This document shows, piece by piece, positions 2,523-60,811 of a stretch of 64,000 bases of DNA. Source of the stretch: Hemileia vastatrix (taxonomy: Eukaryota > Basidiomycota > Pucciniomycetes > Pucciniales > Zaghouaniaceae). Location of the stretch: NCBI GenBank assembly GCA_030280995.1, contig JASXTE010000007.1:15500501-15564500 (forward strand), written 5' to 3'. Both the position numbers and the translations under genes were made by a program. The notes below the pieces were generated by a model. The model was not told where the DNA came from. It saw nothing but the letters and a program-made list of their open reading frames with translations, and made no database searches. The first letter of the stretch is position 1; each line of letters starts with the position of its first letter.

Positions 2523-2570
2523 AGGGGGTGTCAGTTCTGGAAAATCCGCACTTAACTTAAGTGCGGATTT
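2523..2570 (+). repeat. Left terminal inverted repeat and subterminal hairpin of the Harbinger element
   Basis: The 18-bp TIR at 2523-2540 is followed at 2542-2570 by a perfect palindrome: 14-nt arms starting AAATCCGCACTT with a single C as loop. The same AATCYGCACTTA motif recurs three times inside the right end. Such repeated subterminal motifs are usual transposase-binding sites; that role is inferred here. Confidence 0.75.
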
Positions 2571-2814
2571 CAAACCAAATCAGCACTTTTTTCCCGTTTT
2601 TTTTCACAACCACATGTTGGCCACAAAACATCCCTTCCTTTCTTACCCCATCCCTGTCACATGTGACACACTGACTTTCCTCGCTACCTACCCATCAATC
2701 CTCGGCACACACCCCTTCCTTACATTTTCAACATTTTGACCAGGCATGTTTACATTCTTTTTACTTATTTCTTCTACCTCTCAATCTTTTTTCTTGTTAT
2801 GTGCCAGTTTCATA

Positions 2815-4127
2815 ATGCCTCCCAGACATTCCAAATCTCAAAAGGTAACTCAAAAATCTGCATTGTCACAAAAGTCTCCTTGTAAAGCAAGCCCTACACC
2901 TGAAAAATCAAAGTCAGGTTCAGGTCAGCTTAAAAAGGATGATTATCTCATCATAATCAACTTCCTTAAAATAAAATCAAATTTTGAAGCATGTTTTGGA
3001 TGTGAAAAGTCCACTCGTATTGGACATCCACCTTCTTCAAAGGTTAATGGCTACTTATTGATGGCCAATGAAGTAAGGAAGAAAACAAGGGGGAGAATTG
3101 ATATCAATCCTAAACAAATGAAGGAGAGATTTAAGAGTCACCAATCAAAATATAAAAAGGCTCATCATGCTGCAAATGAAACTTGCTTTGGTATTGATGA
3201 TGATGATTTGGAGATTGGAATTACTACTGTTTCCAAAAATCTTAATGTCATGTGTCCTTTCTATGAGGAAATGGATAATCTTTTTGGCACCCGAGTTGAT
3301 GTAAACCCTTGGTTTCTACACGATACTACTAAGCATATACCCTCTGGACCTCAACCATCAATTAATCCTCCTGAAATACCTGTACATCAACAGGATCAAT
3401 CCCCTCCACCTTCTAACCATAGTTCAGCTGAAGATGATCCTGACTATCAAGCAGAACAATTATATTGCAGAAGATCTGAATCCTCAGAGGCCCAAAATTT
3501 AAATGTATGTTTACTTTTTGTTTTTTCTTCAATTCTTCTCTGAATTTCTCTTTCATTCTAGTCTCCTCCTACTCAAACTCAATCTCCATTAAATAATCTC
3601 AATTCTGGAAATGTGAATCCCACTTTAGAAGCTGCTTTAGATGAACTTCCTGAAGCCTCTTGTTCAAACTCCAAACTATAGCGTTGAGCCTCAATTTCAA
3701 TGAACTTGAACCATCTATTAAAACGTGGTGATACTTCAACAAGCTCAGTTGGCTCCCTTAAGGATTATTTTGAAAAAAAAGATATAAGTAAGATTTGTTT
3801 ACTATATATCTTAATCATTAACTCATTTATTTATTTATTTCAATTTAATTTTCTCAGCAAAATCAACTATTGCAAAAAATGCCCTTGACTTTGAGAAGAT
3901 GAAGTTTGATCATATGCTAAGGAAAGATCAGCAAGCCTTAGATTTAGAAGAAAAAAAATTTGAGGCAGAGCAGATGGAAAGAGTAAATGACCGTCAATTT
4001 CAAAGAGAAATGGCTACTTGTGAATTGGAAAAACAACAGAGTTTAAAAAAAAAGATTTCATTATGGAATGTGTAAAAAATGGCCAATCTTATGAGGACAT
4101 AAAAAAATTACTTGACCTTTTCAATTG
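2815..4127 (+). pseudogene. Myb/SANT-like accessory protein of a PIF/Harbinger transposon (decayed)
   Basis: Harbinger elements encode, besides the transposase, a Myb-like DNA-binding protein needed for nuclear import and end recognition. Exon 1 (ATG 2815 to 3504) codes for a basic Ser/Lys-rich start, then a helical segment around KKDDYLIIINFLKI, a Gly-His-Pro-Pro turn, and a region with RQMK/RFKSH-type helices and two acidic stretches. This is the layout of the Myb-like family that I recall as abundant in rust fungi. A GTATGT...TTCTAG intron (3505-3561) leads to exon 2, and a GTAAGA...CTCAG intron (3788-3857) leads to a C-terminal coiled coil ending near a typical 'SYEDIKKLLDLFN' tail. Damage: TAG and TGA stops near 3679-3687 and a one-base shift in an A9 run at 4045-4053. 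An upstream in-frame ATG at 2746 adds a hydrophobic stretch; I prefer 2815. Confidence 0.6.
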
Positions 4128-4430
4128 ATAAATTGTTTTTCTAGTTAATTTAATTTTGTTTGATTTCTTTTTGGTAATATTTTCTTATATGCTGACTTAT
4201 AAAAGGTCTTGAATATAGTACGTTATTTTTGACAAATTGTTGAAAATATCACACAATTTTTCTATCTTTACATTCAAGTCAATAAGTTTGCTTATAATTT
4301 TATTTTGACTAAAATTTGAAATTATAATAAAAATTTTTTATCTTTACTTTCAAGTCAATAAGTTTGCTTATCTAAATACTTCTAAGTCAATAAAATTCAA
4401 TATCTCTTTTGAAAATTTGGCAATACCTCC
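4128..4430 (+). repeat. Left part of the degenerate ~93-bp tandem array
   Basis: AT-rich, non-coding. Blocks such as 'aagtcaataagtttgctta' occur twice. The last 50 bp (tctaagtca...ggcaatacctcc) match the unit that continues on the far side of E1 at 13828. The Gypsy insertion therefore split a tandem array. Confidence 0.6.
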
Positions 4431-5690
4431 TGTCAGCCAGGCTATTCCAGGATCCCAGTAAATGATATGTTAACTTATTGGACCTGAAAGAGGGCATAAA
4501 TAACTGCATTTGATGTATATAAATTTATATTTTATTGCATAATAAAATTATATAAGTATCTTATTAAATATAAGTGTTATATTAATTTTATTGTTATATA
4601 AATTATGTATACATTTAAATTAAGCATAATATATTTTATATTCTACAAATAATGGCACATTTTTATGTATTTAATAATTATAAATAAATATTTAATTAAT
4701 TAAAAACATATATTATAATTATAAGTGTAAAATTGACTTATAATATAATTTAGTTAATTATTTAAATTTATATATTAAATAACACCTTTCATATAGTATT
4801 AAATAATAATTAATGGCGCTTCTTTTGACCCTTAATTGTGTCAGGAAAAGATTAAATAAATTATAATACTTATTTTATAAAATAGTATTATAAATTCTCA
4901 ATTTGAATTAATTAAGTGTTTCATTTAAACTAGTTATTTAATTACATAGTGAAAACAATTAAATAATATTAATTTACACTGAATTAAATTGATTACATAC
5001 CTTGTTACGTCAAAACATGTTATTTGTTTCACTTATAAATGCTGAAAACATATTTTAATACTTGTTTTGAATTATTTTTCCCATAGTTCTTATGTCACAG
5101 GGTTGTTTAGTTACTCATTATTTTATATTAACTGATTTGGGAAATTTGGTATGGGAATTTTACTTTCTTAATTGGGATTCTTATTATTTTCGTATATTTT
5201 TCTCTCAATTACTATGTTACAATTATCTTCTTTGATCTTCTTGTTTTACTTCATTACTATTTTTGTATATTGTCATTTGTAGCGCTTTAGAGGACCCATT
5301 GCCTATAAAAAGGCCTTGGATAATCCCCTGTACCATCATCACTTACTATACACTCAACAACTTGAATATATTTTTATATTACATTTATATTATTTTTTAT
5401 TAGTATCAAAATTCTAATTGAAATTCTATATAACAATTGAAAGGTTGCCTTAAGTCTGATAGTGATTATAGTGTCTGCTGCGCATAGCCCTTACATTAAA
5501 ATAATATTGTTATTTAAATAAAAACCTCATTTTTATATCATCTCTCAAGAAATTTGTTGTTGCTCCTTTTCAATAAATTAAATAAATTTTTTTTTATATT
5601 TTATTTCTTTTATTTCTCAAATACCCTTTTTTCCTTGTCCTCCTCTATTTCTTCCCCTTTTTCTTCCCTCTTCTAGACGACTGGCCGACA
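4431..5690 (+). repeat. 5' LTR of E1
   Basis: It starts TGTCAGCCAGGCTATTCCAG and ends CTGGCCGACA, and is nearly identical to 12570-13827. The U3 contains AT-rich blocks and the conserved segment 'cgcttcttttgacccttaa'. The U5 end is pyrimidine-rich. Confidence 0.95.
5304..5310 (+). promoter_or_regulatory. TATA box in the E1 5' LTR
   Basis: TATAAAA lies in the block 'ggacccattgcctataaaa', which is conserved in the other LTRs (29959-29965 in E2, 38985-38991 in E3). It lies about 380 bp before the LTR end. The conserved 'catcatcactta' downstream would be near the transcription start. Inferred core promoter. Confidence 0.6.
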
Positions 5691-6369
5691 ACTGGGGACC
5701 TTTCCAAATGACAACGACGATACCAATTCTTGCGACGAAGAACAAACGCACGGACCACCCAGCAAAAAAGAAAACTTTTGCCGCAACCGTGTTTCAAACT
5801 TTGGTTCAATCTATTAGGTTTATATTAATTTAATTCATCTATTATTTTTAATTGATTTTTTGATCACTATAGTAAGTTAACCTTTGCACCTCTCACTCAT
5901 ATTACTATATTTTTACTGCAATAACAGTGATTGTGGCTTAATTGCTGATTCACTGAGTGTAAGTGTTCATTTATTAAAATTTTTTTTAACCTAGTTGACC
6001 ATTATAGAGTGTTTAATTCCTCTTAGTCCTAGAAGAAATTAACATTATTATTAATAAAATTTGAATTATTAAATTAATTTTTATTATTATTAATTTTTGT
6101 TCATTTTGGTTGACTTAAATAGTACTTTTTACTTAGTCCCATATATTGCCATATTTAATTTTGGTAATTTAATTGGTTGGATTAACTTAATTTTTTATTC
6201 CCAATTTAACTTTGCAATCCATTTTATTAATTAATTTTTTATAAATATTACTTTATATTAAAAAAATTTTTTTATATATAATTTAATTAATAAATTTTTT
6301 TTTATTTGGAGCAATTATTAACTGACTTTTATTAATTTTTTTAAGAAGTTAATTAATCTTCCCACTATT
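5691..6369 (+). other. E1 untranslated leader
   Basis: Begins ACTGGGGACCTTTCC directly after the LTR, where the primer-binding site should be; I could not match it to a tRNA. It contains the conserved blocks 'cacggaccacc' and 'tttgccgcaaccgtgtttc', and a possible leader splice donor 'tagtaagtt'. No ORF. Confidence 0.6.
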
Positions 6370-7051
6370 ATGTCCAACAATTTGGCTGAGAAAATGGATA
6401 ACATGCAAGTGGATGAAATTGAAATTGATTATGATGGTGATACTGTGAGTTCTTCTAAAGTTGGACATAAAAAATCTTATGCTAACAAGAAAAATTCACA
6501 TAATTCAGGATGTGGAAATGACAGGAGAAGTAAACAAATCAAACCCCCTTCTCCCAGCACAACAGAAGGAAGTAAAGCCTCCAGTACCTCAAGAAGGTCT
6601 TCCAAAAGGATTCAAAACAAAAAAGCTTCCTCTGCACCAACAAATCAGCAATCTGTCCAGTCATATCAAAGAACTGAGGACAGAAAACATGAAATACAAG
6701 GCAAAAGTAGACTCCTTGTGGGATCAAGTTCAGGAACTCAGGAACCAAAATCAGGCCCAGGCCCCTCCTCAGTTGCCTCCCAATCAGCCTCAGTTTCAGG
6801 CTCAACCTTCACAGCCCCCCAGCTCCTTCACACAAAATCAAAGTACTATGGAAGTAGAAAAATGGAAATGGGATTATCTAATGAGTCACTACCAGCAGAA
6901 TGTGCAACATCCTCCTCATCATCAGCCTGGCCCATCCAGAACACCCAATTTCCATCCTCCTCCTCATCCTCACCAACCAAGCAGGAGAAAGAAGGCCCAA
7001 GCACAATCCTAAACTCAGTCTCAGGGGAAGTTTCCTCCTCTGCCATGGTAA
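6370..7051 (+). pseudogene. E1 ORF1: spliced coiled-coil, Pro/Gln-rich protein (truncated)
   Basis: Exon 1 is 6370-6444 (25 codons, MSNNLAEKMDNMQVDEIEID...). The 64-nt intron 6445-6508 starts GTGAGT, contains the branch-site-like TGCTAAC and ends TTCAG. Exon 2 runs in a different frame from 6509 and has an Ile/Leu coiled coil around NLSSHIKELR, then a Pro/Gln-rich tail. Compared with E3, about half of the changed codons in exon 2 are synonymous in this frame (10 of 14 in the coiled coil), which argues that this is the selected frame. A C-to-T change makes a TAA at 7010-7012, 12 codons before the usual end at 7049-7051. Function unknown; probably a structural or Gag-type protein. Confidence 0.6.
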
Positions 7052-10000
7052 GTAATTTGGTTGATAATCACTTAGGTATGTTTTCTAATAAGACTTTTTC
7101 TGCAGGTAATATTATTGAACATGGTGAAAGAAAAGTTAATCCTGTTAAAAGACAGCTTCCTGTAACTAGTAGCCCTATTGATGTAATTAGCAAATTGTCT
7201 TTTGATGAACCTTTACATTTAACTTCTACTTCTTTAATCAATCTTATCTTGAAATTAAGAATGATTCTGTTTCCCCTGAAGTCTATACCTTAATTGAGAA
7301 AACTTCTGAAGAAATATTGAAAGATACCCTTGATTTTAATGTTGTGAAAGACAAACATTTAAGAGATGTGTTAATCCATGAGAATGATAGATTAAATAAT
7401 TTGCACTTGCAATGTAAGGTAAGTTCTTCTGTACAGGATACAGCTTATTTTAAAATCAAAGAAACCTTAAATATTGTTCTTAGCCAACAAAAACAAATAA
7501 GGAGTGACCATAGAGCTATCTCAGATAGAAATATCAATCTACATAAGACCTTGAGTGAATTGAAACCCCTTATTGAAGAAAATTATTCATTAAAAAATGA
7601 AATAAAATCTCTACAAAATGAGTTTAAAAAGCTAAAGAATGATTTCCATGCACTAAGTGCCAAACACACAGTTTCTGAGGACAGAAATGTTCTATCTCTT
7701 GCAAAAGTAAATGACCAGATGTCTGAAATTCCAAGGATAAGAAACTATGTGTCTGCCCTGCAGGATAAATTCTCAAACTTAACCATCAATAATGATATGA
7801 ATGAGAATGCTGTCCATAAGCTGCATAAAAATAAAGAAAAGAACCTGAGAAGAGTTCCTCCTTTCTTCCTCATATTTCAACCATTAAACGAACTGAAAAT
7901 GAGTCTGTAAAATCTTTTGCTACTAGCAAAAAATCTTGTGATGGTCATGCACCAGCTGTTTCTGTAAATAATGAAATTTCTGAACACCTGGCTAAAATTC
8001 AGGAATTATTAATGAGGAATAATTCAAACCAAAAAATGGACCATCCCAGTAGTCAGAAAAATTGGCCTAAGTTGGACCAATATCCTACCTTTGATGGTGA
8101 TTATTCCTCAGATTGGCAACACTTTATCCAAAGAATTGATAATTTAAAGAGATCTTATAAACTACCTGATGAGGAAATTGTTTCTAAGCTAATTTCTTTA
8201 TTTTCCAATGTAGCCTTGATGTGGTATGAATCTGTCCTTTTGGATAACAATCATTATACATGGAATGATTGGAAATCCTTGATTGAGAATCAGTTTGGTG
8301 GTTCAAAATTCAGGTTAGCTCAGCAAAGACTGTATGAGAATACTAGATATGTATCCTCCTCTTTTGAAAAGCCCATTGTTTTTCTTATGAAAGTAACAAA
8401 AATCCTAAGAGCAATTGATCCAAAGATGGATTATGATATTTGGAGAGATAAAATCTTGTATAAATTACCAAATTCTCTTAGAGATTTGATTGTGGCTAGA
8501 ACTGAGCATGTAAGGGAAAATTCTTCTTTCATTAATATCTTTAATGAGGTACTACTCAACCATAGATATGAACCAAAGAATTACCTTGGTAAATCTTATA
8601 ATGATCAGATTAAACCTTCTACAAAACTCCCAGAAAAATCTGTTAAACCCTCTGCCCCAGTTGCACCTAAAAAATATGCAACAAATACTTGTTATAAATG
8701 TAACAAACCATGGCAAAAGGGTCATGTTTGTGACAAGAAAATTCATCTTGTTGAACAGAATGAAGACACTGATGAAGCTGAAATTGATGTCAATAATTCT
8801 TCTAGTGATTGTGAAAGTAATATCTCTTATGGCAATGACTCTGTTAAAGATGTTTTAATGTTAGAACAGGATGTCCATTATTTAGATAATATATCTGAAG
8901 AATGTGTATTGGATTTATCTTCAGTGGAAAATGCTGAAATAATTAAAGATATTACTAACAATTCTGTAGCCATATCTCCCTTGAAAGCACCTGTTTTCAT
9001 TAATTGTAAAAATGTTGATGTAGTTCTTGCCTCTGGTGCTGGAGGAAGTGTAGTGTCTGAAAAGGCTTTAGCTTCAGTAGATAAGGATTATTTGAGTAAA
9101 TTATTACCTATAACTTCTGAAAAATGGAGAGGGTATGGTTCTACCTTAATTCCTATTGGCAAATACAAAACATCTGTATTCTTCAAATATAATGGTGGTT
9201 TTGTCAGAACTATTTGTGAATTTGTTGTCATGCAAAATGATTATTTAAGCAATTGGTTTATTATGGGAAATGATATTTTAACCATGTTTGGTGTTTAATT
9301 GGACCCAGCAAATAATTGCTTCACCTTGGGATTGAATGGCAAAAGGAAATTCAAAATTTCCTCCTCTAAAAAACCTTCTGGGCATCTGTTAAAGTCTTTT
9401 AACTCACTAATCCAGTGTAAAGGCAGAAAAACAACTAAAATGGATGATTTATTAAATGAAATAAATACTGCTTTTTTTAATGGTCAGTTAACTAGTGAAC
9501 AAAAGGATTCTATTATTGCCTCTATTACCTCTTTCCCTTGGCTTTTGCTCGTGGTTCTCATGTCTTGGTAATTGTTCAGGAAGAGATGAAAATTACCTTA
9601 TCCTGTAACTTAAGTGATATTCCTCCTAGTCTTAAGAAAAAACCATATCCTGCTTCTCCAACAAAAAGAAAGGATATTGAAGATAATATTGCAACATTAC
9701 TAAAAATGAATATCATTGAGAAAGTGGATGTCACCCCCAAATATTGTGTCATCTCCCCAGTCTTAATTTCTTATGAAAAAGATAAGTCTAGATTATGTGG
9801 TGATTACAGAGCATTAATCACTTATACTGTTGATGATATTTATCCTTTACCCAGAATTAATTCAATATATACTAGCTTGCAAGGTGCAAAATTTATTAGT
9901 TGTCTGGATGGTAATAAAGGATATCATCAAGTTCCAGTTGAGAAAAATTCTCAAAACTTTTTGCTTATTGCTACTTGTATGAGAATATATAAGTATGTTA

Positions 10001-12536
10001 GGATGCCATTTGGCCCTAAAAATGGTTCTACAGTTTTTCATAAGGTCATGGATAACACTTTCCATCAGGAAATAATTGAAGGATGGCTCATGGCTTACCT
10101 TGATGACATTATAGTTTTTTCTAAAACTTTTGATGAACATATGATTCACTTGAATAGGGTTTTTCAAAAAATGGATGAAATCAATATGACCTTGTCCTTG
10201 AAAAAGTGTAAATTTGGTTTTCAATCTTTGAAAGTCCTTGGACATGTTGTGTCAGGCTTACAAATTTGTGTAGACCATAACAAAGTTGCTGCCATTCAAA
10301 ATGTGAAAGCACCAACTTCTGTAAGAGAAATCCAAAGTTTTTTGGGTATGTGTGGCTATTATAGACAATATATTAAAAATTATCAGGTCATAGCCTTGCC
10401 TCTTACAAAACTGACCAGAAAAGATGTTGCCTTTCCCTGGAATAATGACTGTCAAAAAGCTTTTGATACATTAAAAAGTTTCTTAATGACAGCCCCTATA
10501 TTGGCTCTTCCAGATTTTAACAAACCATTTGTCCTGTATACAGATGCTAGCTTTGTTGGTCTGGGTGCTGCCCTTCACCAGAAACATATTATAAATGATA
10601 AATCCTCAGAGGTTGTAATTTGTTATATTTCAAGAACCTTGAGAAATAGTGAATTGAAATATGGTGCCACTCAATTAGAGTGCTTAGCAGTTGTTTGGGC
10701 TCTTGAGAAGCTTCATTACTATTTGGATGACCAAAAATTTGAGTTGGTAACTGACTGTAGTGCTGTGAAGTCCCTCTTAAACCTGAAAACACCTAACAGA
10801 CATATGTTCAGGTGGCAACTTGCTGTTCAAGAATACAGAGGACGGATGACAATTATCCATAGAGCTGGAAATTTTCACTCCAATGTTGATATGCTCTCCA
10901 GATTGCCTCTGCCAAATAATGACTCAAATCCTGCTTATGTACCTGAAGATGATATTGTTCATATCCATGGTATATTTGTAGTGGATATGGAAGAAGAGTT
11001 ATTGCAATTAATACTGGATTCATATGAGAGGGATTCTGACTTAAATAAATTGGTCACTATCTTAAATGATCCTAAGAATGCTTCAATTCAAGCATTGATA
11101 AAAACTCTTCCTGCAAAGTATCAAAATGCTTTAAGTAAAGGAAAGTTTTCTATTGAAGATGGTTATATATATTATAGAAGAAAGCTTACTAATGTAATTG
11201 TAATTCCTCCTTCTATGAAAGAAACTATCCTCAAACTTTTTCATGATGACATACTGGCTGGTCATTTTGATCTTGAAAAAACATTGATTAGAATCAAAAA
11301 CACTGCTTGGTGGGCTAATATGTCTGAAGACACAAAATTATATGTTGAATCTTGTGATTCCTGCCAAAAATCTAAAAGGTTGACAGGTAAGAGAGCAGGG
11401 TTATTACAACATATTGAGGCACCTAATGCTCTCTGGAAAATCATTAATGTGGATTTTGTCACTGGTCTTCATGTTGCAGGTAAAGACAGCTTTAACTCTT
11501 GTTGGGTAATACTAGATAGATTCACAAAAATGTGCAAATTTATTCCAACCCACAAAGATGTATCCACCAAAGAATTAGCTTTCTTATGGTGGTCTTACAT
11601 GTTTAATATTATTGGTTTTCAAAAAGCCATTATCTCTGATTGAGATCTTAAATTTACTTCTGAGTTTTGGACCTCTTTGATGGATATTTGTGGCTGTGAG
11701 TTAAAATTGTCTACAGCTCACCATCCTCAGACTGATGGTCTAGCTGAGAGAATTATTAAAACTCTGGAAGATATGATTTGAAGGTATTGTGCCTTTGGTT
11801 TAGAATATAAAGACAATGACGGATTTACTCATGATTGGGTCACTCTATTGCCTGGTCTTGAATTTGCATATAATAGCACTGTTCATTCTGTCACTGAGAA
11901 AAAGCCTTTTGAGCTTTGGTTAGGTTATGTCCCAAATACTCCTGCTCAGATTCTCAATAATAAATTACCATAGTTGGAACTACACCCTGGTGTAAAATCT
12001 TTCATGCAAATGCAACAGCTATGCAGAGAACATGCTCAGAGCTGTATTGATCTAGCATTTGAATATGAAAAGAAAAGATGGGATAAATCCCATAAAGAAT
12101 ACACATTTAACAAGGGTGATGAAGTGTTGATCTCTACTGTCCATTTCAATTTACAAGGTAACAACAAATTAAAAGATCCTTTTGTAGGACCATTTTTTTT
12201 AAAAGGATGGTTGGTGATAACGCAGCAGAAGTTGTATTGTATTCTCCATATGATGGGAAACATCCTGTTTTTCCCATCTCTTTTCTTAAGCCTTATACTT
12301 CCAACAGTGACTTATTTCCCAAAAGAAGGGGAAGACCTAAGAAAAACCCTCAGGAAGTCACAGAAACAGCAGAAATTGATAAAATTCTCAATGATAGAAT
12401 TTTCACTTCTGAAAGAGGTACTGAATATTTATTGAGATATAAGAACAAATCATCTGAGCATGATGCATTGATACCTGGCAAGGAGATTTCAAATCTTCCT
12501 ACTCTGTTAAAAAAGTACAAAAAGAAAAAATCTTAG
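7045..12536 (+). pseudogene. E1 gag-pol polyprotein, broken
   Basis: The order is gag, CCHC-like knuckle, protease, reverse transcriptase, RNase H, integrase, chromodomain. It starts at ATG 7045 in a GCCATGG context overlapping the ORF1 stop position. Breaks: a one-base loss near 7243, a shift near 7840-7910, TAA at 9296-9298, a one-base loss near 9537, TGA at 11641-11643, TGA near 11779, TAG at 11971-11973, and a shift near 12195. The protease motif DSGAG is changed to ASGAG (codon 9029-9031), removing the catalytic aspartate. The reverse transcriptase keeps YLDD (about 10096), and the integrase keeps its Asp-Asp-Glu positions apart from the stop. The chromodomain segment (12410-12500) is out of frame with the integrase. 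Confidence 0.9.
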
Positions 12537-12569
12537 CATTTTTTTTATTGTTTTTTTAGAGTAAGGGAG

Positions 12570-13827
12570 TGTCAGCCAGGCTATTCCAGGAGCCCAGGAA
12601 ATGATATGTTAGCTTATTGGACCTGAAAGAGGGCATAAATAATTGCATTTGATGTATATAAATTTATATTTTATTGCATAATAAAATTATATAAGTATCT
12701 TATTAAATATGAGTGTTATATTAATTTTATTGTTATATAAATTATGTATACATTTAAATTAAGCATAATATATTTTATATTCTACAAATAATGGCGCATT
12801 TTTATGTATTTAATAATTATAAATAAATATTTAATTAATTAAAGACATATATTATAATTACAAGTGTAAAATTGACTTATAATATAATTTAATTAATTAT
12901 TTAAATTTATATATTAAATAACACCTTTCATATAGTATTAAATAATAATTAATGGCGCTTCTTTTGACCCTTAATTGTGTCAGGAAAAGATTAAATAAAT
13001 TATAATACTTATTTTATAAAATAGTATTATAAATTCTCAATTTGAATTAATTAAGTGTTTCATTTAAACTAGTTATTTAATTACATAGTGAAAACAATTA
13101 AATAATATTAATTTACACTGAATTAAATTGATTACATACCTTGTTACGTCAAAACATGTTATTTGTTTCACTTATAAATGCTGAAAACATATTTTAATAC
13201 TTGTTTTGAATTATTTTTCCCATAGTTCTTATGTCACAGGGTTGTTTAGTTACTCATTATTTTATATTAACTGATTTGGGAAATTTGGTATGGGAATTTT
13301 ACTTTCTTAATTGGGATTCTTATTATTTTCGTATATTTTTCTCTCAATTACTATGTTACAATTATCTTCTTTGATCTTCTTGTTTTACTTCATTACTATT
13401 TTTGTATATAGTCATTTGTAGCCCTTCAGAGGACCCATTTCTTATAAAAAGGCCTTGGATAATCCCCTGTAGCATCATCACTTACTATACACTCAACAAC
13501 TTGAATATATTTTTATATTACGTTTATATTATTTTTTATTAGTATCAAAATTCTAATTGAAATTCTATATAACAATTGAAAGGTTGCCTTAAGTCTGATA
13601 GTGATCATAGTGTCTGCTGCGCATAGCCCTTACATTAAAATAATATTGTTATTTAAATAAAAACCTCATTGTTATATCATCTCTTAAGAAATTTGTTGTT
13701 TCTCCTTTTCAATAAATTAAATAATTTTTTTTATATTTTATTTCTTTTATTTCTCAAATTCCCTTTTTTCTTTGTCCTCCTCTATTTCTTCCCCTTTTTC
13801 TTCCCTCTTCTAGACAACTGGCCGACA
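12570..13827 (+). repeat. 3' LTR of E1
   Basis: Starts TGTCAGCC at 12570 right after the purine tract AGAGTAAGGGAG and ends GGCCGACA at 13827. It is followed by the CCTCC duplication. Confidence 0.95.
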
Positions 13828-14060
13828 CCTCCCCTTGAATTTTATTGAAACAAGGGGTGGGTACCACCAAATTTTTCTAAGTCATCAATTTCACATGTCA
13901 GCTTTAAAAAATTGGCAATACCCTCCCCTGCATTTTATTGAAACAAGTGGTGTGTAACACCAAATTTTTCTAAGTCATCAATTTCACATGTCAGATTTAA
14001 AAAATTAGCAATTCCCTCCCCTGCATTTTATTGAAGTAAAGGGTGAAAGTCATCAAAATT
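13828..14060 (+). repeat. Right part of the 93-bp tandem array
   Basis: Units start at 13832, 13925 and 14018 (CCCYTGMATTTTATTGAA...), giving a period of 93 bp. Each has 'tctaagtcatcaatttcacatgtcag' and 'aaaaaattrgcaat'. The third unit decays into AT-rich sequence. From 14060 to 14343 I see no gene or repeat. Confidence 0.85.
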
Positions 14061-14343
14061 TAATATAGTTAAATAAATTAATTAATATATAAATAAGATA
14101 TGTCAAATTTACTACTTTTAAAGTAATGACAATTCCTCATTCCAAAATGCAGATCAAGTCTAGAAACTAGGTTTGGGAATTTTCACAGGTATAGGCTAGA
14201 GGAACCCCATGAAACAAATTAATGTTTTCATGATTACCATTTATACAACACAAGGTCGTTGGCCCATTACTTTAATTTCATAAATTGAAATATCATATTT
14301 ATTTATTAAAAATTTATGGAAGAATATTAAATATTTGGTGACT

Positions 14344-15303
14344 CTACGAATCCCCATACTTTTTAGATCTACCTAGAGAATTTTTAAATTTATTACCTTT
14401 TTCTTCTTTTTTTAACTTGTTTATTCGTTGGATTAAATTTTGACTGATCTGGAAAGAGCAACCGAAATTCCTGAAGTCTTGAAAAGATTCCAAACCTGGA
14501 GGAGCCTTTGTGGTTTGGTGATTATCGTAAGAAGAATTCCAAACTGTTTTGATGATTCCATTTCCTAATCCAAAATCGATTATACATCTATGTTCCGGGA
14601 AATATAATCCATGTCCTTTAATTTTTTCAGGTGACGGAATAGGTTGTCCAGTGATAGGATTAATATATGTGAAAATTCCATAAGTGAGGTAATTGGCATC
14701 ATTTGAGTCGGTGTGAATTTGTTTATGAAATTTAGAATGAGTGATTATAACATTTGAAAACATTAGATATTCACTGCTAATATCTTCCCATTCAGAGTCG
14801 CACCAATTTGGTATTCCAAGTCTTGTAGCAACTTCATTATTTGTTTCAAAAGCTTTATTACAGAGTTTTTTAAGTCAAAGAGCAAGAAATGAATTAAGTG
14901 AAGGTAAAGTATTCCATTTTAAAAAATCTTTATCTAATTCAGCTTTAGATAAAGATCTGAGTAAAGAATCTATGCCTATTTGAATTAAATTCAGTAAAAT
15001 GATATTAAAAAATACAGAAAAATTTTTAAACATACCAAGAGAAAAACCTTTATCAAATCCTGGTCTCCATCCAATGCTAATCATGATTCCACCCAACAAA
15101 CTCTTATTCCTTAAAGGTAAGCGAACCAAAGCCATTTGATAGAGTGTTATGATGAGATTGCAGAGTTGATTAAATGATTCACCTTTTAAACCATTAAAAG
15201 AATGGTTTTTGTAAATAAATTGAGGTTTGAAAGTATTATTAATAACAGCTTTAACTTCATCACCTCCAGTTTCAGTTAAATAATGTATATTTTCAGGTAA
15301 CAT
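14344..15303 (-). pseudogene. TET/JBP-like 2OG-Fe(II) dioxygenase (fungal family), interrupted by one in-frame TGA
   Basis: Fungal TET/JBP enzymes oxidise 5-methylcytosine using 2-oxoglutarate and Fe(II). The reading frame runs from ATG 15303 to the stop at 14344. It is a single frame broken only by TGA at 14875-14877, with no shift. After the stop, codons continue through the segment RLGIPNWCDSEWEDISSEYL into FSNVIITHSKFHKQ. Iron ligands are visible: the HxD motif in HKQIHTDSND and a distal His in YDNHQTTKAP after IDFGLGNGIIKTVW. The segment FRNFGCSFQISQNL fits the 2OG-binding Arg and the C-terminal strand of the family. The N-terminus may lie upstream, beyond a T-rich stretch with a stop at 15325-15327. 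The gene lies between the two Harbinger genes. In basidiomycetes such genes are known as transposon cargo, mainly of KDZ elements. Confidence 0.75.
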
Positions 15304-15719
15304 TTTTGGATATTGTTTTTTTTTTCAACTTTAGTTTTATAGTACTTGACTTTTGAAATATGGCCAAATATTTGATCCAAGTGAATTTTTTTTAATTTCT
15401 TTTATTTAGATACTGTTCATTTTTTGTCAATGTTTTAAATGATGATTGAAAAGAAATTGAATTTGAAGATGATAATGAAGTTAAAGAAGATGAGAGTGAG
15501 GTAAGTGGTGAATCTGAAGTTAAATACATGTATTTTTCTACTTAAAAATTTGTTACTTTTCAAACACCCAAAATTATACATTAAAAAAAACTCACTTAAT
15601 TTAAATTAAAAAAATTAAAATCCTCAAAAGACTAATAAGAATTTTTTTTATTTCACTTGAACTTGATGAATATTTTTCTCTAAAATTAAAAAAAAAAAAA
15701 TTCAAAAAACTGTGAAATT
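15304..15719. other. No gene recognised
   Basis: AT-rich sequence upstream of the oxygenase. A short plus-strand acidic run (about 15450-15510, Glu/Asp codons) has no start or partner exon. Poly-A runs occur near 15690. It could hold the promoter and first exon of the oxygenase. Confidence 0.4.
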
Positions 15720-16525
15720 TTTTTATCACTTCCCCATTCCCCTAAATTCCCTGCTCCAAACCCCTCTCCCACCTGCCCAAAACCCTTGTACAAACCCCCA
15801 CATACAACCTATTCACATCCCCTTTTAAACCCCTCCAAACCCCCTTCCAAACCCGCCTTCAATCTGCCCCAAACCCCCCTCCAAATCCCCTCCAAGCCCC
15901 CCTCCAAACCCCCCTTTAATCCCCCCTTCAATCCACCTTTATTCCCCCCCTAACCTCCCCCTCCAAACCCCCCCCAATCCCCCCCTCAATGTTACTTAAC
16001 GATTTGCTATTGATTCTTTAAGTTAACGAACAATTGCTAACAATTGTTTGTTAACTTAACAATTTGTTAGCGGCTCATTAAGATAACAAACAATTGCTAA
16101 CAATCGTTCATTAACTTAACGAATCGATAGCAAATCGTTTAGTTAATGAACAATTGCTAACAATTGTTCATTAACTTAACAATTCGTTTTCAAATCGTAA
16201 AGGGACCTTTAAGGGGGGGTAGGGGGGTTTGGAAGGGGGGCTGGAGGGGGTTTTTGAGGGGATTTGGAGGGGGGATTCAGGGGATTTGGAGGGGGGTTGG
16301 AGAGGAATGAGGGGAGGAAATGAGGACACCAACAAGGGGGAGAAAGGGAGAGATGAGACCAAAGAGGGAGAAAAGGGAGGTTAGAGTGAGACAAGGAGGA
16401 GGGAATAAGGCAGCCAAAGGGGGGGAAAGGGGGATGTATCCATTCCAAGGAGAGGGTAAAGGTGGGAAAAAGCCCAGGCCAAGGGGGGATAAAGAGTAGG
16501 ATAAAAGAGAGGAAAGAGGGAGAGA
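15720..16525. repeat. Large foldback: C-rich arm, AT-rich inverted repeats, G-rich arm
   Basis: 15720-15990 is a run of CCCC-tracts on the plus strand. 16200-16525 is a run of GGGG-tracts whose complement repeats the same wording (AAACCCCCCTCCAAATCCCC). Between them, 16000-16195 holds inverted and tandem copies of 'aacaattgctaacaattgtt' and 'gttcattaacttaac'. Several G5-G7 tracts separated by 2-7 bases at 16207-16252 satisfy the usual G-quadruplex pattern. A Pro-rich open frame on the complement of the G-rich arm is a by-product of composition. Confidence 0.7.
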
Positions 16526-16949
16526 GAGAGAGAGAGAGAGAAAAAAAGGTTAATTTTACCTATAAATTTAAAAAAAACCATTTACAAAAAAAAACAAAAA
16601 CTCAAAAAACCAAAAAAAAAAAATAGCAAAAAATTAAGTAAAAAAGATAAAATGACTTACCTGGAGAGATGAGTTTAGAAAAAAGAAATAAAATTTTAAT
16701 TGTTTGAGTGATGTAGGAAGAGAGGAGAAAACGGATATGAGTGAAGAAAAAAAAAGAGTGTGACTGAAAAAATATGCGTTTGCTGAAAATATGCGATTTC
16801 ATGTTGATTTGATGAAAGAAAACACAGAGAGATAAAAAAAATAAGACTTTAACAGCAAATTCAAAAACCAAAAAAATATGCAAAAAAATTTACCATTCTC
16901 AGTGAATAACACATGCACATTGATTATTTGAAGAGAATGAAAAAAAAAA
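16526..16949. other. Low-complexity sequence downstream of the transposase
   Basis: A (GA)n run at about 16519-16541, then A-rich sequence. No gene. Two 'aaaaatatgc' repeats. Confidence 0.4.
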
Positions 16950-18214
16950 TTAAAATTGCGTCGAAAAATGTTGGAGTGTTATTGGAAGAATTTTTTCCCT
17001 TATACTAGTTGATTGGGAAATAAAAGTGTTGGATATAGTTGGAGGTGAATCAGCTTGTTCATCTTCATACAGCTCTAACCATTGATCTTTGAGGTCAGCA
17101 AGTAGGTTATGAAGTATAGTACAACACAGAATCCAGTTGATCACCGCCTCCATTTCAGATTTATTTCTAAGAGGACTTCTAATTCCTTTAAACTAGAAAA
17201 ACAGCCTTTCAAGATTACAATAGAATGTTCAATACGGACTCTTGACTTTGCCAAATGATTGTTGAGCTTGGCATTTTGACTGTCTTCTGAAGCTGCTCCC
17301 CGAAAAGCAGGAAGTACATACTTTCCATTCACATAAGCAGAATCTGCAAGAAGATACTGATCTTCATCAAAGAATTTTTCAGGTTCATTTGAATTTTGCA
17401 TTCTTTGGAAGATGTAGTAGTCATGACATGAGCCAGGATATCCAGCAAAGAATGATGTAAATTTTTTGTTTACATCACATATAAGCTGAACAGAAATTGA
17501 ATATCTATAAAGAAGATATATTTGTTTGTGTTAGTTTCAAAGAGAATGAAAGGAGTTAAAAATAATCTACCTCTTTTTACGGTCAAAGTAATTGTTTCCA
17601 CCTTGAGCAGGTTTCTGGCTCAAAGGAATAGTAGTACCATCAACAAAACCAATACATCCTGGGAAGCCCTCTGCTTTCATAACCTGAGATGATTCAATTC
17701 CCTCTTCTTTTGTTGGCCAGGTGAGAAGTTGAGATTCCAAGTATTTGATGGCAGTGATACATTGTTTGGTATAAGTGTTAACTGAACCATACCCTAAATC
17801 AAAGACATTTTCTAAATGTTTCAAAGTGGCTCCATTACCATTTGAACCCAAACGACATAGTGTGATGGCCAATTGAATTGAAGGATGTCGTTGTTCTTTT
17901 TGAGAATTATTGTGAAATATGGGATGATCCTGAATAAGCTCAAGCAATTTAAGGAAACATTCCTGAGAAGTCCTGAACAGCTGTCTAAAACTGGGTGTAG
18001 ATAGGTTAAGAAGTGTTTGGATGGTGTACTTGGGGGTATGAAGTACTTGAGGCTTTCTGGGAAGAAGGTAACGTTTCGTGGCCATTTTTGATAAAAAGAC
18101 AAAATCTTCTTCTAGATAAGAATCAGAATCGCAATCAGAGTCCAAGAGCAGTTCAAGAGCCATGAAAGTCATTGCTTTATGTAATTTATCACGATTTGAA
18201 AGTGAGGAAGGCAT
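16950..18214 (-). pseudogene. PIF/Harbinger DDE transposase (HARBI1-like), frameshifted
   Basis: The nuclease of a PIF/Harbinger transposon. ATG 18214 starts MPSSLSNRDKLHK; an upstream alternative at 18256 lacks support. Exon 1 ends at 17571. A 66-nt intron (17570 down to 17505, GTAGAT...TTATAG) joins it in frame to exon 2, giving the segment YSISVQLICDVNKKFTS. The DDE residues are visible: first Asp in GFVDGTTIPL (about 17645), second Asp in LLADSAYVNG (about 17335), Glu in SRVRIEHSIVILKGCF (about 17225). The helix-turn-helix region around GYGSVNTYTKQC precedes them. A one-base shift near 17190 moves the C-terminus (RNKSEMEAVINWI...) into another frame, which then runs to 16950. Only this shift is seen, so the inactivation may be recent or a sequence error. 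Confidence 0.85.
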
Positions 18215-18429
18215 AACTCTTATATGATATGATATGAAGATGTAAATGATGTACAATGTTTTGAGTTATGAAGTGTTATGCTGCAGAGTGCTGCGTATGA
18301 ATGGGATGATGCTGACAAATCAGTGAAATGGGACTTGATGGTGAAATTAGCACTTTTGGTTGAGAAAGTGTGGATTTGAATGAAATAAGTGACTTTTTTC
18401 ACTTTTGAAATCCACCAGTATTGGGGCTA

Positions 18430-18523
18430 GTGTGTTTCGGAAATCCGCACTTATTTAAGTGCAGATTTGGTCAAATTTAAGTGCAGATTTGTAAGTGTGG
18501 ATTAGCCAGAACTGACACCCCCT
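18430..18523 (-). repeat. Right terminal and subterminal repeats of the Harbinger element
   Basis: The complement starts AGGGGGTGTCAGTTCTGG and then has AATCCACACTTA, AATCTGCACTTA and AATCTGCACTTA...TAAGTGCGGATTT. These are the same motifs as the left end hairpin. ATT follows at 18524-18526. 18215-18430 is transposase 5' flank with no other gene. Confidence 0.8.
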
Positions 18524-18526
18524 ATT

Positions 18527-19212: not shown

Positions 19213-20462
19213 TCAAAATGTGTGTTGGAATTGTGAAGCTCCTGGCTGTTCTGAATAAAATTCACTAAGCTGTTTGTCAAAGAAGGATCTCAGTGGTTTG
19301 TCGAAAGTTGAAATTGAATGGATTTTTTCATTTAGGTAAGGATCTGATTCTGATTTTGCTTCCACTATCATGTTGTGTAAGATTATACAACAGGTCATTG
19401 TCTCCTTTACTTCTTCAATATGCCATAGAAAACATAGCTGGGTTAGAATGCCCCACCTACTTTGCAACACCCCAAAAGCACATTCTATGTCCTTTCTAGC
19501 ACTTTCTTGTAATTTAGAGTAATATCGGCTTTCCTCATCTTGCGGATGAGAAATTGTTTTGACCAGTGTTGACCATGGTGGGTAAATACCATCAGCAAGG
19601 TAGTAACCATTTTTATAAATTCTATTATTTATTTTATATGTTACACCATCTTGACTACCGGCCAAAGGTTTATCAAACAAGTTGCTGCAATGAAGAACAT
19701 TGATGTCGTTTAAAGCTCCAGGTGATCCAAAGAAAGCATGCCAAATTTGTAAGTTTTTGCTTGCTACAGCCTCCAATATCATTGTTGGAGTTTTTTCCTT
19801 CCCCTGGAACTGACCATCCCAGGCTGTGGGGAAATTTTTCCACTCCCAGTGCATCCCATCAATATTGCCAAGACATCCCGGAAACCCCCTGTCTTAGTAC
19901 TCCCTCAAAATCTTGGTTTTCTCCACAGCGTTTGGTTCTCATAAATACTCACTTTTGTATAAAGATATGATGTCTTTAACAAAAGTTTTCAATGCCTTTA
20001 GTGAAGTGGTTTCAGCTATGTGAACATACTTGTCAGTTGAGTTGGCCGAAATCCCATAGGCAAGCTGGCAAAGTACACTAGTTAGCTTTTGGTGAGGTGT
20101 CAATCCAAGTTTCCTGCAGCAATCCTGTAGTAATGTAGTTAGTAAAAAATTGAGAAAAAGTGTGATGGATATTATTAAAAAAATACTATAATTACAGATT
20201 TTAAAACCCAATATTTATTGTGCATCTGTAAATCCTCAACAATTTTTGTAAATAGATCTTTGCTTATTCTAAATCGGCACTCAAAAATAATATTGTTGTA
20301 AATGGGGTTTTGCCCAAAGTAGTCTTTCATTAAGCGTGCATTACCAGTGTAACAATCTCGTTGTATCATTTTTTTCTTTGGTCTTGGTGTAGTTGAATTA
20401 GATGATTGATTGTTGCAATAGGTAGTTAACAAATATGTAAGAAGGAGATCTTCTTCTTCCAT
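19213..20462 (-). pseudogene. Second PIF/Harbinger transposase, 'plant transposon protein' type, decayed
   Basis: Exon 1 starts at ATG 20462 and ends at 20196. A 71-nt intron (20195 down to 20125, GTAATT...CTACAG) joins in phase to DCCRKLGLTPHQKL..., continuing into QLAYGISANSTDKYVHIAETTSLKAL. Two nonsense codons follow (TGA after KSEYL and TAA after ILREY). The frame then gives GFPGCLGNIDGMHWEWKN with the first catalytic Asp, AFFGSPGALNDINVL, YYLADGIYP with the second Asp, and RKDIECAFGVLQSRW with the Glu. This wording is characteristic of the Plant_tran branch and differs from the transposase at 16950. I found no terminal repeats for it, so the element boundaries are unknown. Confidence 0.8.
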
Positions 20463-29197: not shown

Positions 29198-30335
29198 TGT
29201 CAGCCAGGCTATTCCAGGAGTCCAGTAAATGATATGTAACTTATAAAACCTGAAAGAGTGGGTAAGAATTGTATTTAATGAATATAAATTATTATTTTAT
29301 TGCATAATAAAATTATATAAGTATTTTATTATATACAAGTGTTATATTAATTTTATTGGTTATATAAATTTTTATATAAATTTAAATTGAACATAATATA
29401 ATATATTCTACAAATAATGGCGCATTTTTATCTTACTTAATAGTTATAAATTTATATTTAATTAATTGAAAAACATATATTATAATTATAAGTGTAAAAT
29501 TGACTTATAATATATGTAAATTAATTAATTAAATTTATATATTAAATAACACCTTTCATATAATACTAAACAATAATTAATGACACTTCTTTTGACCCTT
29601 AATTGTGTCAGGAAAAACCAATTAATTAATTTATACTAAATTGAGATTAATTACATGTTTTGTTGTGTCAAAGTATTTTTTGTTTCACTTAAAATATCCT
29701 TAAATCAGACTGTACTATCTGTTTGGAATTATCTTTCTCATAGTTCCTATGTTCCAATCTTGTTTAGTTATTCACTATTTTTACTTACTGATTTGGGAAT
29801 TAATGGCGGGAAAATTGGATTCTTAATTGGGGTTTTAATTATTTGTTTCATGTTTTTCTCTACATTGTTATGTTTCATTTACTCTTTGATATATTTGTTT
29901 TATTCTATTCTAACTATTGTATTTACAAACATAGTGGCGCTTCAAAGGACCCATTGCCTATAAAAGGGCCTTGGATAATCCCCTGTAGCATGATCACTTA
30001 TTATACACTCCACAAATTAAATACTATTTTACTACGTTTATATTTTTTTTATTAGTAATACAATTCTAATTAAAATTCTATATAACAATTTAAAGGTTGC
30101 TTTAAGTCTGATAGTAATTAAAAGTGTTTGCCGCGCAGAGCCCTTACATTAAATAGTATTATTATTAATAAATCCTAAGTTTTTGTCATCTCTCAAAGTT
30201 GCTCGCCATTGTTTTCCTTTTTAAATAAATTAAATATTTTATTATAATTTATTACTTTTATTTTTCCCTTGTCCTCCTCCTTTTCTCCTCCTTTTCTCCT
30301 CTTTTCCTTACCTTCTTCTAGACAACAGACCGACA
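29198..30335 (+). repeat. 5' LTR of E2
   Basis: TGTCAGCC...CCGACA; TATAAAA at 29959-29965 in the conserved 'ggacccattgcctataaaa' block. Pyrimidine-rich U5 end. Confidence 0.95.
29959..29965 (+). promoter_or_regulatory. TATA box in the E2 5' LTR
   Basis: TATAAAA in the same conserved context as in E1 and E3. Inferred core promoter. Confidence 0.55.
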
Positions 30336-31024
30336 ACTGGGGACCTTTCCAAACGACGATGACAATCGAGCCTGGCAACGAACGACAAACGCACGGACCA
30401 CCTAGCAAAAAACAAAACTTTTGCCGCAACTGTGTTTCGAACTTGGGTTCAATTTCTTAGGTTTATATTATATTAATTCTTATATTATTTTGAAGTGATT
30501 TTTCGATCACTATAGTAAGTTCACCTTTGCACCTCTCACTCATATTACTATATTTTTACTGCAATAACAGTAATTGTAGCTTAATTGCTGATTCACTGAG
30601 TGTAAGTGTTCAATTATTAAATTTTTTTTTTCCTAGTTGACCATTATAGAGTGTTAAATCCTCTTAGTCCTAGAAGAATTGACATTTTTTATTAATACAA
30701 ATTGAATTATTAATTTAATTTTTTTTATATTATTAATTATTGTTAATTTTGGTTGACTTAAAAGTACTTTGTGCTTAGTCCCAAATATATTGCCATATTT
30801 AATATTGGTAATTAATTGGTTGAATTAACTTGATTGTTTATTCCCAATTTAACCTTGCAATCCATTTTTTTAAAAATTAATTTTTTATAATTATTACTTT
30901 ATATTGAAAATTTTTTTTTCTATAATTTAATTAATAAAATTTTTTTATTATTATTTGGAGCAATTATTAACTAACTTTTATTATTTTTTTAAAATAAGAA
31001 GTAAATTAAAATCTTCCCACTAGT
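30336..31024 (+). other. E2 untranslated leader
   Basis: Begins ACTGGGGACCTTTCC directly after the LTR (expected primer-binding site; tRNA not identified). Contains 'cacggaccacc', 'ttgccgcaactgtgtttc' and AT-rich sequence up to the ORF1 start. No gene. Confidence 0.6.
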
Positions 31025-31706
31025 ATGTCCAACAATTTGGCTGACAAAATGGATAACATGCAAGTGGATGAAATTGAAATTGACTATGATGCTGACACTG
31101 TAAGTTCTTCTAAAGTTGGACATAAAAAATCTTATGCTAACAAAAAGAATTCACATACTGCAGGATGTGGAAATGACAGGAAATGCAAACAAACCAAACC
31201 CCCTTCCCCCAGTACCACAGAAGGAAGTAAAGCCTCTAGTGCCTCAAGAAGGTCTTCCAAAAGGCTTCAAAATAAAAAAGCTTCCTCTGCCACAACAAAT
31301 CAGCAACCTATCCAGTCATATAAAAGAGTTGAAGACAGAAAATATGACATACAAAGCAAAGGTAGACACCTTGTGGGATCAGGTCCAAGAACTCAGGAAC
31401 CAGATTCAGGCCCAGGCCCCTCCTCAGTTGCCTCCCAATCAGCCTCAGTTTCAGGCTCAACCTTCACAGCCACCCAGCTCAACCATCCAAAATCCAAATA
31501 ATATGGAAGTAGAGCAATGGAAATGGGATTATCTAATGAGTCACTACCAACAGAATGTGCAACACCCTCCTCATCATCAGCCTGGCCCATCCAGAACACC
31601 CAATTTCCATCCACCTCCTCATCCCTACCAACAAGGCAGGAGAAAGAAGGCCCAAGCACAATCCCAAACCCAATCTCAGGGGAAGTTTCCTCCTCTGCCA
31701 TGGTAA
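31025..31706 (+). CDS. E2 ORF1: spliced coiled-coil, Pro/Gln-rich protein
   Basis: Exon 1 31025-31099 (25 codons); a 64-nt intron 31100-31163 with GTAAGT, TGCTAAC and CTGCAG; exon 2 31164-31706. The predicted product is 205 residues: an acidic N-terminus (MDNMQVDEIEIDYD), a basic/Pro linker, a coiled coil around QISNLSSHIKELKTENM, a Gln/Pro-rich stretch, MEVEQWKWDYLMSHYQQ, and a His/Pro-rich tail ending PPLPW. The frame is open in E2 and E3. The TAA stop (31704-31706) overlaps ATG 31700 of the next ORF as ATGGTAA. No domain that I recognise; its position suggests a Gag-associated structural protein. Confidence 0.6.
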
Positions 31707-37194: not shown

Positions 37195-37228
37195 CATTTT
37201 TTTTATTCTTTTTTTTAGAGTGAGGGAG

Positions 37229-38365
37229 TGTCAGCCAGGCTATTCCAGGAGTCCAGTAAATGATATGTAACTTATAAAACCTGAAAGAGTGGGTAAGAAT
37301 TGTATTTAATGAATATAAATTATTATTGTATTGCATAATAAAATTATATAAGTATTTTATTATATAATAGTGTTATATTAATTTTATTGGTTATATAAAT
37401 TTTTATATAAATTTAAATTGAACATAATATAATATATTCTACAAATAATGGCACATTTTTATGTTACTTAATATTTATAAATTTATATTTAATTAATTGA
37501 AAAACATATATTATAGTTATAAGTGTAAAATTGACTTAAAATATATGTAAAGTAATTATTTGAATTTATATATTAAATAACACCTTTCATATAATATTAA
37601 AAAATAATTAATGACGCTTCTTTTGACCCTTAATTGTGTCAGGAAAAACCAATTAATTAATTTATACTAAATTGAGATTAATTACATGTTTTGTTGTGTC
37701 AAAGTATTTTTTGTTTCACTTAAAATATCCTTAAATCAGACTGTACTATCTGTTTGGAATTATTTTTCTCATAGTTCCTATGTTCCAATCTTGTTTAGTT
37801 ATTCATTATTTTTACTTACTGATTTGGGAATTAATGGCGGGAAAATTGGATTCTTAATTGGGGTTTTAATTATTTGCTTCATGTTTTTCTCTACATTGTT
37901 ATGTTTCATTTACTCTTTGATATATTTGTTTTATTCTATTCTAACTATTGTATTTACAAACATAGTGGCGCTTCAGAGGACCCATTGCCTATAAAAGGGC
38001 CTTGGATAATCCCCTGTAGCATGATCACTTATTATACACTCCACAAATTAAATACTATTTTACTACATTTATATTTTTTTTATTAGTAATACAATTCTAT
38101 TAAAATTCTATATAACAATTTAAAGGTTGCTTTAAGTCTGATAGTAATTAAAAGTGTTTGCCGCGCAGAACCCTTACATTAAATAGTATTATTATTAATA
38201 AATCCTAAGTTTTTGTCATCTCTCAAAGTTTCTCACCATTGTTTTCCTTTTTAAATAAATTAAATATTTTATTATAATTTATTTCTTTTATTTTTCCCTT
38301 GTCCTCCTCCTTTTCTCCTCCTTTTCTCATCTTTTCCTTACCTTCTTCTAGACAACTGACCGACA
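37229..38365 (+). repeat. 3' LTR of E2
   Basis: TGTCAGCC at 37229 to CCGACA at 38365, followed by the TAAGT duplication and then the rest of the E3 LTR. Confidence 0.95.
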
Positions 38366-38370
38366 TAAGT

Positions 38371-39363: not shown

Positions 39364-40022
39364 ACTGAGGGCCTTTTCAAACGACGATGAACGACAAACG
39401 CATGGACCACCTAGCAAAAAAGAAACTTTTGCCGCGACTGTGTTTCAAACTTGGGTTCGATTTCTTAGGTTTATATTATATTAATTCTTATATTATTTTG
39501 AAGTGATTTTTCGATCACTATAGTAAGTTCTCCTTTGCACCTCTCACTCATATTACTATATTTTTACTGCAATAACAGTGATTGTGGCTTAATTGCTGAT
39601 TCACTGAGTGTAAGTGTTCAATTATATTTTTTATTTTTCCTAGTTGACCATTATAGAGTGTTAAATCCTCTTGGTCCTATAAGAATTGACATTATTATTA
39701 ATACAAATTGAATTATTAAATTAATTTTTTTTATTATTAATTATTGTTATTTTTGGTTGACTTAAAAGTACTTTGTGCTTAGTCCCAAATATATTGCCGC
39801 ATTTAATATTGGTAATTAATTGGTTGAATTAACTTGATTGTTTATCCCCAATTTAACCTTGCAATCCATTTTATTAATTAATTTTTTATAATTATTACTT
39901 TATATTAGAAAATTTTTTTTTTATAATTTAATTAATAAAAATTATCTTTTATTTTTGGAGCAATTATTAACTAACTTTTATTATTTTTTTTAAAAAAAAA
40001 GTTAATTAATCTTCCCACTATT
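39364..40022 (+). other. E3 untranslated leader
   Basis: Starts ACTGAGGGCCTTTTC; otherwise like the E1 and E2 leaders, with 'catggaccacc' and 'tttgccgcgactgtgtttc'. No gene. Confidence 0.6.
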
Positions 40023-46191: not shown

Positions 46192-46225
46192 CATTTTTTT
46201 TATTGTTTTTTTTAGAGTGAGGGAG

Positions 46226-60183: not shown

Positions 60184-60261
60184 AAAATAAAAAAAGAAAT
60201 TAATAATTCACTAAATAAAGAGAAAAATAATAATTAACAGATATAAATAAAAAACTTGTTT

Positions 60262-60780: not shown

Positions 60781-60811
<31 letters not shown>

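Follow-up and report, generated by a model that had tools for sequence, protein, structure and literature searches.

Why should a transposon carry a gene for an enzyme of the DNA-demethylation type, and does the transposon profit from it? This question is raised by a 64,000-nucleotide stretch of the genome of the rust fungus Hemileia vastatrix (contig JASXTE010000007.1, positions 15,500,501 to 15,564,500), which is called the window here. Positions 2523-18523 of the window are one insertion of a DNA transposon of the PIF/Harbinger type (PHIS superfamily), and its ends enclose, besides a transposase gene and a third gene, one that encodes a TET-like 2OG-Fe(II) oxygenase. The best explanation overall, and in our view a probable one, is a high-copy PIF/Harbinger family that duplicates AWT (AAT or ATT) upon insertion and whose TET-like oxygenase, kept by selection, would ease the silencing or the CpG mutation of element DNA.

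The PIF/Harbinger-type family is present in high copy number in H. vastatrix. In the 747,610,610 bases (791 contigs) of the genome searched, the 19-mer TAGGGGGTGTCAGTTCTGG, which consists of the 18-bp end and the last T of the flank, has 3,961 forward and 4,035 reverse exact matches (7,996 in all). The reversed control of this 19-mer has none in the whole genome on either strand (0 + 0), and the 18-bp ends are therefore not a product of chance. An older annotation of the species reports 2,954 Harbinger repeats (PMC6472787). Among the first 100 places listed for the 19-mer, 36 adjacent plus/minus pairs within 10 kb of each other were counted by eye, and 20 of them were fetched. Since every pair of at least 4.6 kb was included and the remaining 16 span 1.5-4.1 kb, this sample leans to long elements. 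Seven of the 20 (L017-L021, L023, and L024) contain the third gene, the TET gene, and the transposase gene in the order of the window, and this whole form, with three genes between 18-bp ends, is about 6.4-6.6 kb long. Five others (L025, L027, and L030-L032) carry TET exon 2 at 76-78% identity and the 5' half of the transposase, with no third gene. Four of these diverged-TET elements measure 3.4-3.8 kb, and L025 is longer. One element (L029) holds a TET fragment at 76%, and no TET match was found in the other seven fetched elements (L022, L026, L028, and L033-L036).

The gene order is also seen when the search starts from the oxygenase. Of 5,824 unconfirmed candidates in a DNA search of the genome with TET, 40 places were scored, and each of them reached at least 95%. 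At 29 of 29 further loci (L038-L066), the third gene and the same spacer adjoin TET; these loci are the best matches to the window TET and thus biased to its likeness, and they were viewed with 1.5 kb of flank, which leaves the transposon ends outside the view. Wider fetches showed that L067, which is the locus of L058, is a whole element with the same gene order, and that L068 has the same order and a right end, with no left end seen within the stretch fetched. The preliminary description of this locus had proposed a search for further copies of the arrangement, and had declared beforehand that its reading would fall if the oxygenase never occurred in other copies or lay between different ends. 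In fact, the arrangement recurs in 7 of the 20 fetched pairs and in L067, between the same ends. Two of the fetched elements have unusual structures. L022 is a palindrome-like composite in which copies of the third gene lie on either side. In L020, another right end follows 151 bp beyond the first and the flank is repeated, as if the end or the target had been duplicated.

The family inserts at AWT with a 3-bp duplication. The triplet ahead of AGGGGG is repeated behind CCCCCT in 20 of 21 elements (the 20 fetched and the window), and it is always AAT or ATT; the sole element without matching target bases is L022. L067 is flanked by AAT at either end, and its right end contains an additional C. 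The search word fixed T at the left flank and A at the right, so that information comes from the first two letters of the left triplet and the last two of the right one. Empty sites, which the preliminary description had suggested as a check, were found and support the 3-bp count. For this, the two flanks were fused so that the three bases stand only once, and the result was aligned to unoccupied relatives. The empty site of L026 is inside a Gypsy long terminal repeat (LTR), with matches among the window's copies and elsewhere; that of L027 is in L023 (95% over 381 bp). Neither alignment is gapped within some 20 bp of the junction. The site of L028 is also gapless at the junction, yet at only 70% identity. 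Weaker spans were left out, namely L018 (2-bp junction gap, 74%), L036 (gaps), L032 (mixed, 67-73%), L021 and L035 (gapless with changed bases), and L023, whose span is its own right end. The 3-bp TWA duplication of the narrow PIF/Harbinger definition is not what this family shows, since AWT stands in 20 of 21 elements and at the empty sites. A 2-bp TA duplication was considered as well and rejected, as it would need three more bases at the empty sites of L026 and L027. Any AWT element that begins with A and ends with T looks like a TA element, because AWT-A...T-AWT shows TA at both ends.

The transposase confirms the assignment to the PHIS superfamily. As the preliminary description had proposed, it is a DDE transposase, with a DDE_Tnp_4 match of 81 bits over the joined exons in the window (cut-off 24.8). 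A protein search gave 113 homologues at E values up to 1e-5 among 653 candidates. The closest ones listed are from Puccinia coronata (54%) and P. striiformis (52%), followed by Austropuccinia (46%), over most of the query, which is too low for either genus to be the host; some partial Puccinia rows are higher, up to 67% but over 17% of the query. A quick tree was built from the window and 43 chosen homologues of the 113 (44 rows, mostly rust and environmental proteins). It places the window, with 96% SH-aLRT support, in a set of Puccinia and environmental proteins, and five of six Austropuccinia rows fall in the next larger set. The third protein is likely a Myb/SANT-like DNA-binding partner, judging from its only Pfam match, PF13837 (Myb_DNA-bind_4). 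The Myb-like gene of the preliminary description is retained in this weaker form; the match in the window (E 0.004, 18 bits) is below the cut-off of 27 bits. The match recurs in five of five other third-gene frames (E 0.0012-0.019; the L020 frame and one L022 frame are identical) and in none of ten shuffled versions of the third protein. A protein search returned no homologue of the third protein, and a PDB sequence search returned no match.

Harbinger elements with TET genes are already in print. The preliminary description knew of no Harbinger carrier of TET, and this part of it has been overtaken by Kojima (December 2025), who described fifteen TET-bearing Harbinger families with TA duplications and named the lineage PHISTA (PMC12730594). 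The hosts given there are P. graminis, P. striiformis, P. triticina, P. coronata, P. hordei, and A. psidii, and an anti-silencing role is proposed for the PHISTA TET; the name Hemileia is absent from that text. The central surprise, a TET gene on a Harbinger element, thus belongs to that work. A limited literature search found no report of a TET-bearing Hemileia transposon or of an AWT duplication in such an element. According to its description in PMC12730594, PHISTA shares with the Hemileia family the rust host, the PHIS-type DDE transposase near Puccinia and Austropuccinia proteins, and the TET/JBP and third-protein genes between terminal inverted repeats.

The most serious alternative is that the family is simply PHISTA in Kojima's sense, with TA duplications. 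The host, the TET gene, and a Harbinger-like transposase nearest first to Puccinia and then to Austropuccinia proteins agree with this, and the TA reading fits every single insertion. However, the empty sites of L026 and L027 are gapless only on the 3-bp count, and the third protein gives a weak but repeatable Myb/SANT match, whereas PHISTA is described as having none. We regard this alternative as a real possibility, although one that falls somewhat short of an even chance. The Hemileia family may well belong to the same lineage, even though it lacks the TA duplication by which PHISTA is defined. Either the lineages differ in their target, or the published TA is a misread AWT-A...T-AWT, and the duplication found here gives a specific point on which the published PHISTA families can be checked and perhaps corrected.

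Other known systems resemble the AWT family in part. The Pangu group of PHIS (Harbinger2 in Repbase) has an ANT duplication (Han et al. 2015, PMC4482050), with which AWT agrees. Its terminal inverted repeats usually start with AG or GG and are 11-40 bp long, which includes the 18-bp AGGGGG... repeat of Hemileia, and it also combines a DDE transposase with a second open reading frame. The account of Pangu that was compared here (from PMC4482050) mentions no TET gene, and the likeness concerns the duplication, the terminal repeats, and the gene content. The KDZ elements (Kyakuja, Dileera, and Zisupton) likewise carry TET/JBP as a passenger of a basidiomycete DNA transposon, but they have a transposase of another superfamily and duplications of 7-8 bp (PMC12730594). 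HarbingerS of Phytophthora, as cited in PMC12730594, is a Harbinger with an epigenetic enzyme, which is a SET histone methyltransferase and not a DNA oxygenase. The kind of element is thus already known in related rusts, and the Hemileia family differs in its insertion mark and its copy classes.

The oxygenase is, as predicted from its sequence, an enzyme of the TET/JBP type, which is the DNA-demethylation type. PF20515 (Tet-like 2OG-Fe(II) oxygenase) matches L058 with an E value of 1.3e-31 over profile positions 8-211 of 211, and the window copy with 1.3e-21. Both copies contain HTD and NHQTT, the HxD...H arrangement of TET/JBP, and these motifs are likely the iron ligands; the 2OG-Fe(II) oxygenase with HxD and a distal histidine of the preliminary description is thereby upheld. 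A protein search with TET gave a single homologue, the environmental protein P0001, at 42%. Among 37 TET copies (36 and the window), L058, which serves as the yardstick, is the one without a stop or frameshift over the whole frame. In its wider fetch, L067, the TET frame is open over 393 codons with the intron read through, the transposase exons are open (230 and 193 codons), and in the third gene exon 1 is open (252 codons) and exons 2 and 3 read through to the predicted splice sites and stop. L067 is thus one copy that is open in all three genes, with introns placed from the sequence. The transposase exons are also open in L033 and L034, two short elements with the same ends and with neither TET nor the third gene. 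Intact copies therefore exist. In the diverged-TET class, L031 has an open TET frame with HTN in place of HTD.

In the proposed mechanism, the oxygenase would oxidise putative 5-methylcytosine (5mC) on the element's own DNA. Oxidation would lead to less silencing or less CpG mutation of the element, and this may help the family to spread. Such an anti-silencing role, also put forward in the preliminary description, is likely for the predicted enzyme. That transposons use demethylating enzymes of their own against host silencing is a proposal without experimental validation according to PMC12730594. The region bears marks of CpG-directed mutation. The ratio of observed to expected CpG in the window is 0.23, and for TCG it is 0.17. 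When three Gypsy bodies were compared, in non-independent comparisons with small CpG counts, C/T differences were present at 0.69 (18/26), 0.71 (15/21), and 0.39 (9/23) of CpG sites and at 0.04-0.12 of non-CpG sites. The two LTRs of the Gypsy element nested in the transposon have C/T differences at 3 of 13 CpG sites, versus 0-0.06 elsewhere. Furthermore, 34 of the 77 TET stop codons in the 37 copies occur at five CGA codons, four of which are in TCGA. Such a pattern agrees with the TCG hypermutation that PMC12730594 cites for rusts.

Could the oxygenase instead serve the fungus itself, or have a different substrate such as 6-methyladenine (6mA), thymine, or RNA? CcTET also oxidises 6mA, the product of CMD1 differs, and another activity is allowed for the rust type in PMC12730594. 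However, all 37 sampled TET copies are in the arrangement of this transposon, although a search with this TET would miss distant host genes, and 5mC is the obvious candidate because mutation is CpG-directed. We consider a host role or another substrate unlikely.

Selection on its gene speaks for the view that the oxygenase serves the transposon. Nonsynonymous and synonymous differences per site (pN and pS) in TET exon 2 were compared between L058 and the five diverged-TET elements. pN/pS is 0.18-0.22 at a pS of about 0.6, with bootstrap 95% intervals within 0.12-0.31, although the test consists of one reference copy and five related, non-independent comparison copies. Omitting the codons that hold CpG changes the values little. 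With a pN/pS of about 0.2, TET was therefore under purifying selection while the two subfamilies diverged. Within one subfamily, pN/pS is 0.48 for six open copies and 0.61 for 31 broken copies, and selection on TET is relaxed in the inserted copies. The transposase end of the diverged-TET elements is about 97% like that of the window, and the rest is much less so. In sequence, these elements look chimaeric, and selection probably acted in the older source family from which they derive.

These values also bear on the idea that the oxygenase is a neutral passenger, captured once and since then moved by the transposase without any advantage for the element. In its favour, the reading frame is interrupted within the domain in 31 of the 37 TET copies sampled, 7 of the 20 fetched elements have no TET match, and the sampled elements that lack TET are the youngest and retain more CpGs. 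Neutrality predicts a pN/pS near 1, however, and the observed 0.18-0.22 at a pS of about 0.6 largely refutes it; the values of 0.48-0.61 within the subfamily show how relaxed copies look. In addition, TET genes are reported from many transposon lineages (PMC12730594). We rate neutral carriage as a little less probable even than a host role or another substrate. Finally, that the oxygenase came between the transposon ends by an accident of nesting might be suspected in a region with many nested insertions, but it is refuted by the same gene order in eight other whole elements.

Several observations weigh against a selected oxygenase that eases silencing, beginning with the narrow base of the selection test given above. 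Codons 105-345 (intron omitted) form an open frame in only six of the 37 TET copies, five of which keep HxD...H. No solved structure matched TET in a PDB sequence search, and the AlphaFold models are too poor to use (mean pLDDT 39 for the third protein and 33 for TET). Of 12 shared CpGs at the transposase start, the fraction kept is 0.385 in whole-TET elements (n = 8, including the window), 0.383 in diverged-TET elements (n = 5), and 0.764 in TET-less elements (n = 6), a count that excludes L022 and L029, both of which lack this stretch. Thus, no protection from CpG decay is seen in copies with TET, although age confounds the comparison. The TET-less elements are the youngest, with a pairwise divergence of 0.015 versus 0.043 and 0.030 for the other classes, and TET therefore seems to be unneeded in cis for spread.

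A more specific account can be given, which we hold only tentatively and with more doubt than conviction. In this account, a family of TET-bearing Harbinger elements with AWT insertion of the Pangu type has come to occupy thousands of ends in one rust genome, and TET would be selected through a service in trans to TET-less, transposase-only, and TET-only derivatives that share these ends; the TA of PHISTA may be a misread AWT.

The window copy itself is a dead, Gypsy-interrupted member of the family. All three of its genes are broken, a point that the preliminary description had missed. The element has exact 18-bp inverted ends with ATT flanks, as had been described. The left target-site duplication (2520-2522), for which the empty sites back a 3-bp AWT, is followed by the left terminal inverted repeat AGGGGGTGTCAGTTCTGG on the forward strand (2523-2540) and by a left subterminal repeat of the AAATCCGCACTTAA...TTAAGTGCGGATTT type (2541-2575), which was recognised by inspection and has a 14-bp word in common with the right end. 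The weakly Myb/SANT-like third-protein gene is on the forward strand at 2815-4128, with an approximate end; exon 1 (2815-3540) is open, and there are stops in the second exon and a frame break in the third, where L067 stays open. The TET-like oxygenase gene is on the reverse strand (14344-15529), with a predicted 60-bp intron and a start set by likeness to L058, relative to which it has one stop (TGA) and four frameshifting indels. A low-complexity spacer follows at 15530-16950, which is rich in inverted repeats, as seen from self-matches, and highly variable between copies. The two-exon DDE_Tnp_4 transposase gene, also on the reverse strand (16952-18214), loses its frame in exon 2. As with TET, the introns of the other two genes were placed from the sequence. 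Right subterminal repeats, again seen by inspection (18437-18505), the right terminal inverted repeat on the reverse strand (18506-18523), and the right ATT (18524-18526) complete the element.

The nested Gypsy LTR retrotransposon lies between the third gene and TET on the forward strand. With its CCTCC duplications it covers 4426-13832, and the element proper covers 4431-13827. Its LTRs differ at 23 of 1,254 columns, the 5-bp CCTCC is present on both sides, and reverse transcriptase, RNase H, and integrase zinc-binding domains were found. The Gypsy insertion is later than the Harbinger element, which it splits. Without the Gypsy and one CCTCC, the Harbinger element measures about 6.6 kb, and both the Gypsy and this length agree with the preliminary description. 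Two more copies of the nested-Gypsy family are in tandem at 29198-47364; they are 94% alike and apparently have LTRs in common (LTR-body-LTR-body-LTR). Just right of the Harbinger element, at 19213-19893, there is a transposase fragment of another Harbinger-like family (Plant_tran, PF04827, E 2e-76). A long open reading frame at 48905-50110 looks as if it may encode a transposase of the CACTA or Plavaka type. A long tandem array of TTTTTA-like hexamers is found at 60259-60812, and the left flank of the element (2406-2522) is similar.

The family offers a natural experiment within one genome, in which the same ends occur with an intact TET, a decayed TET, a diverged TET (with no whole transposase), or no TET. 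The benefit of the enzyme to the transposon can be tested through these copy classes. So far, the selection test indicates that the gene mattered, and the CpG counts reveal no sparing of its carriers.

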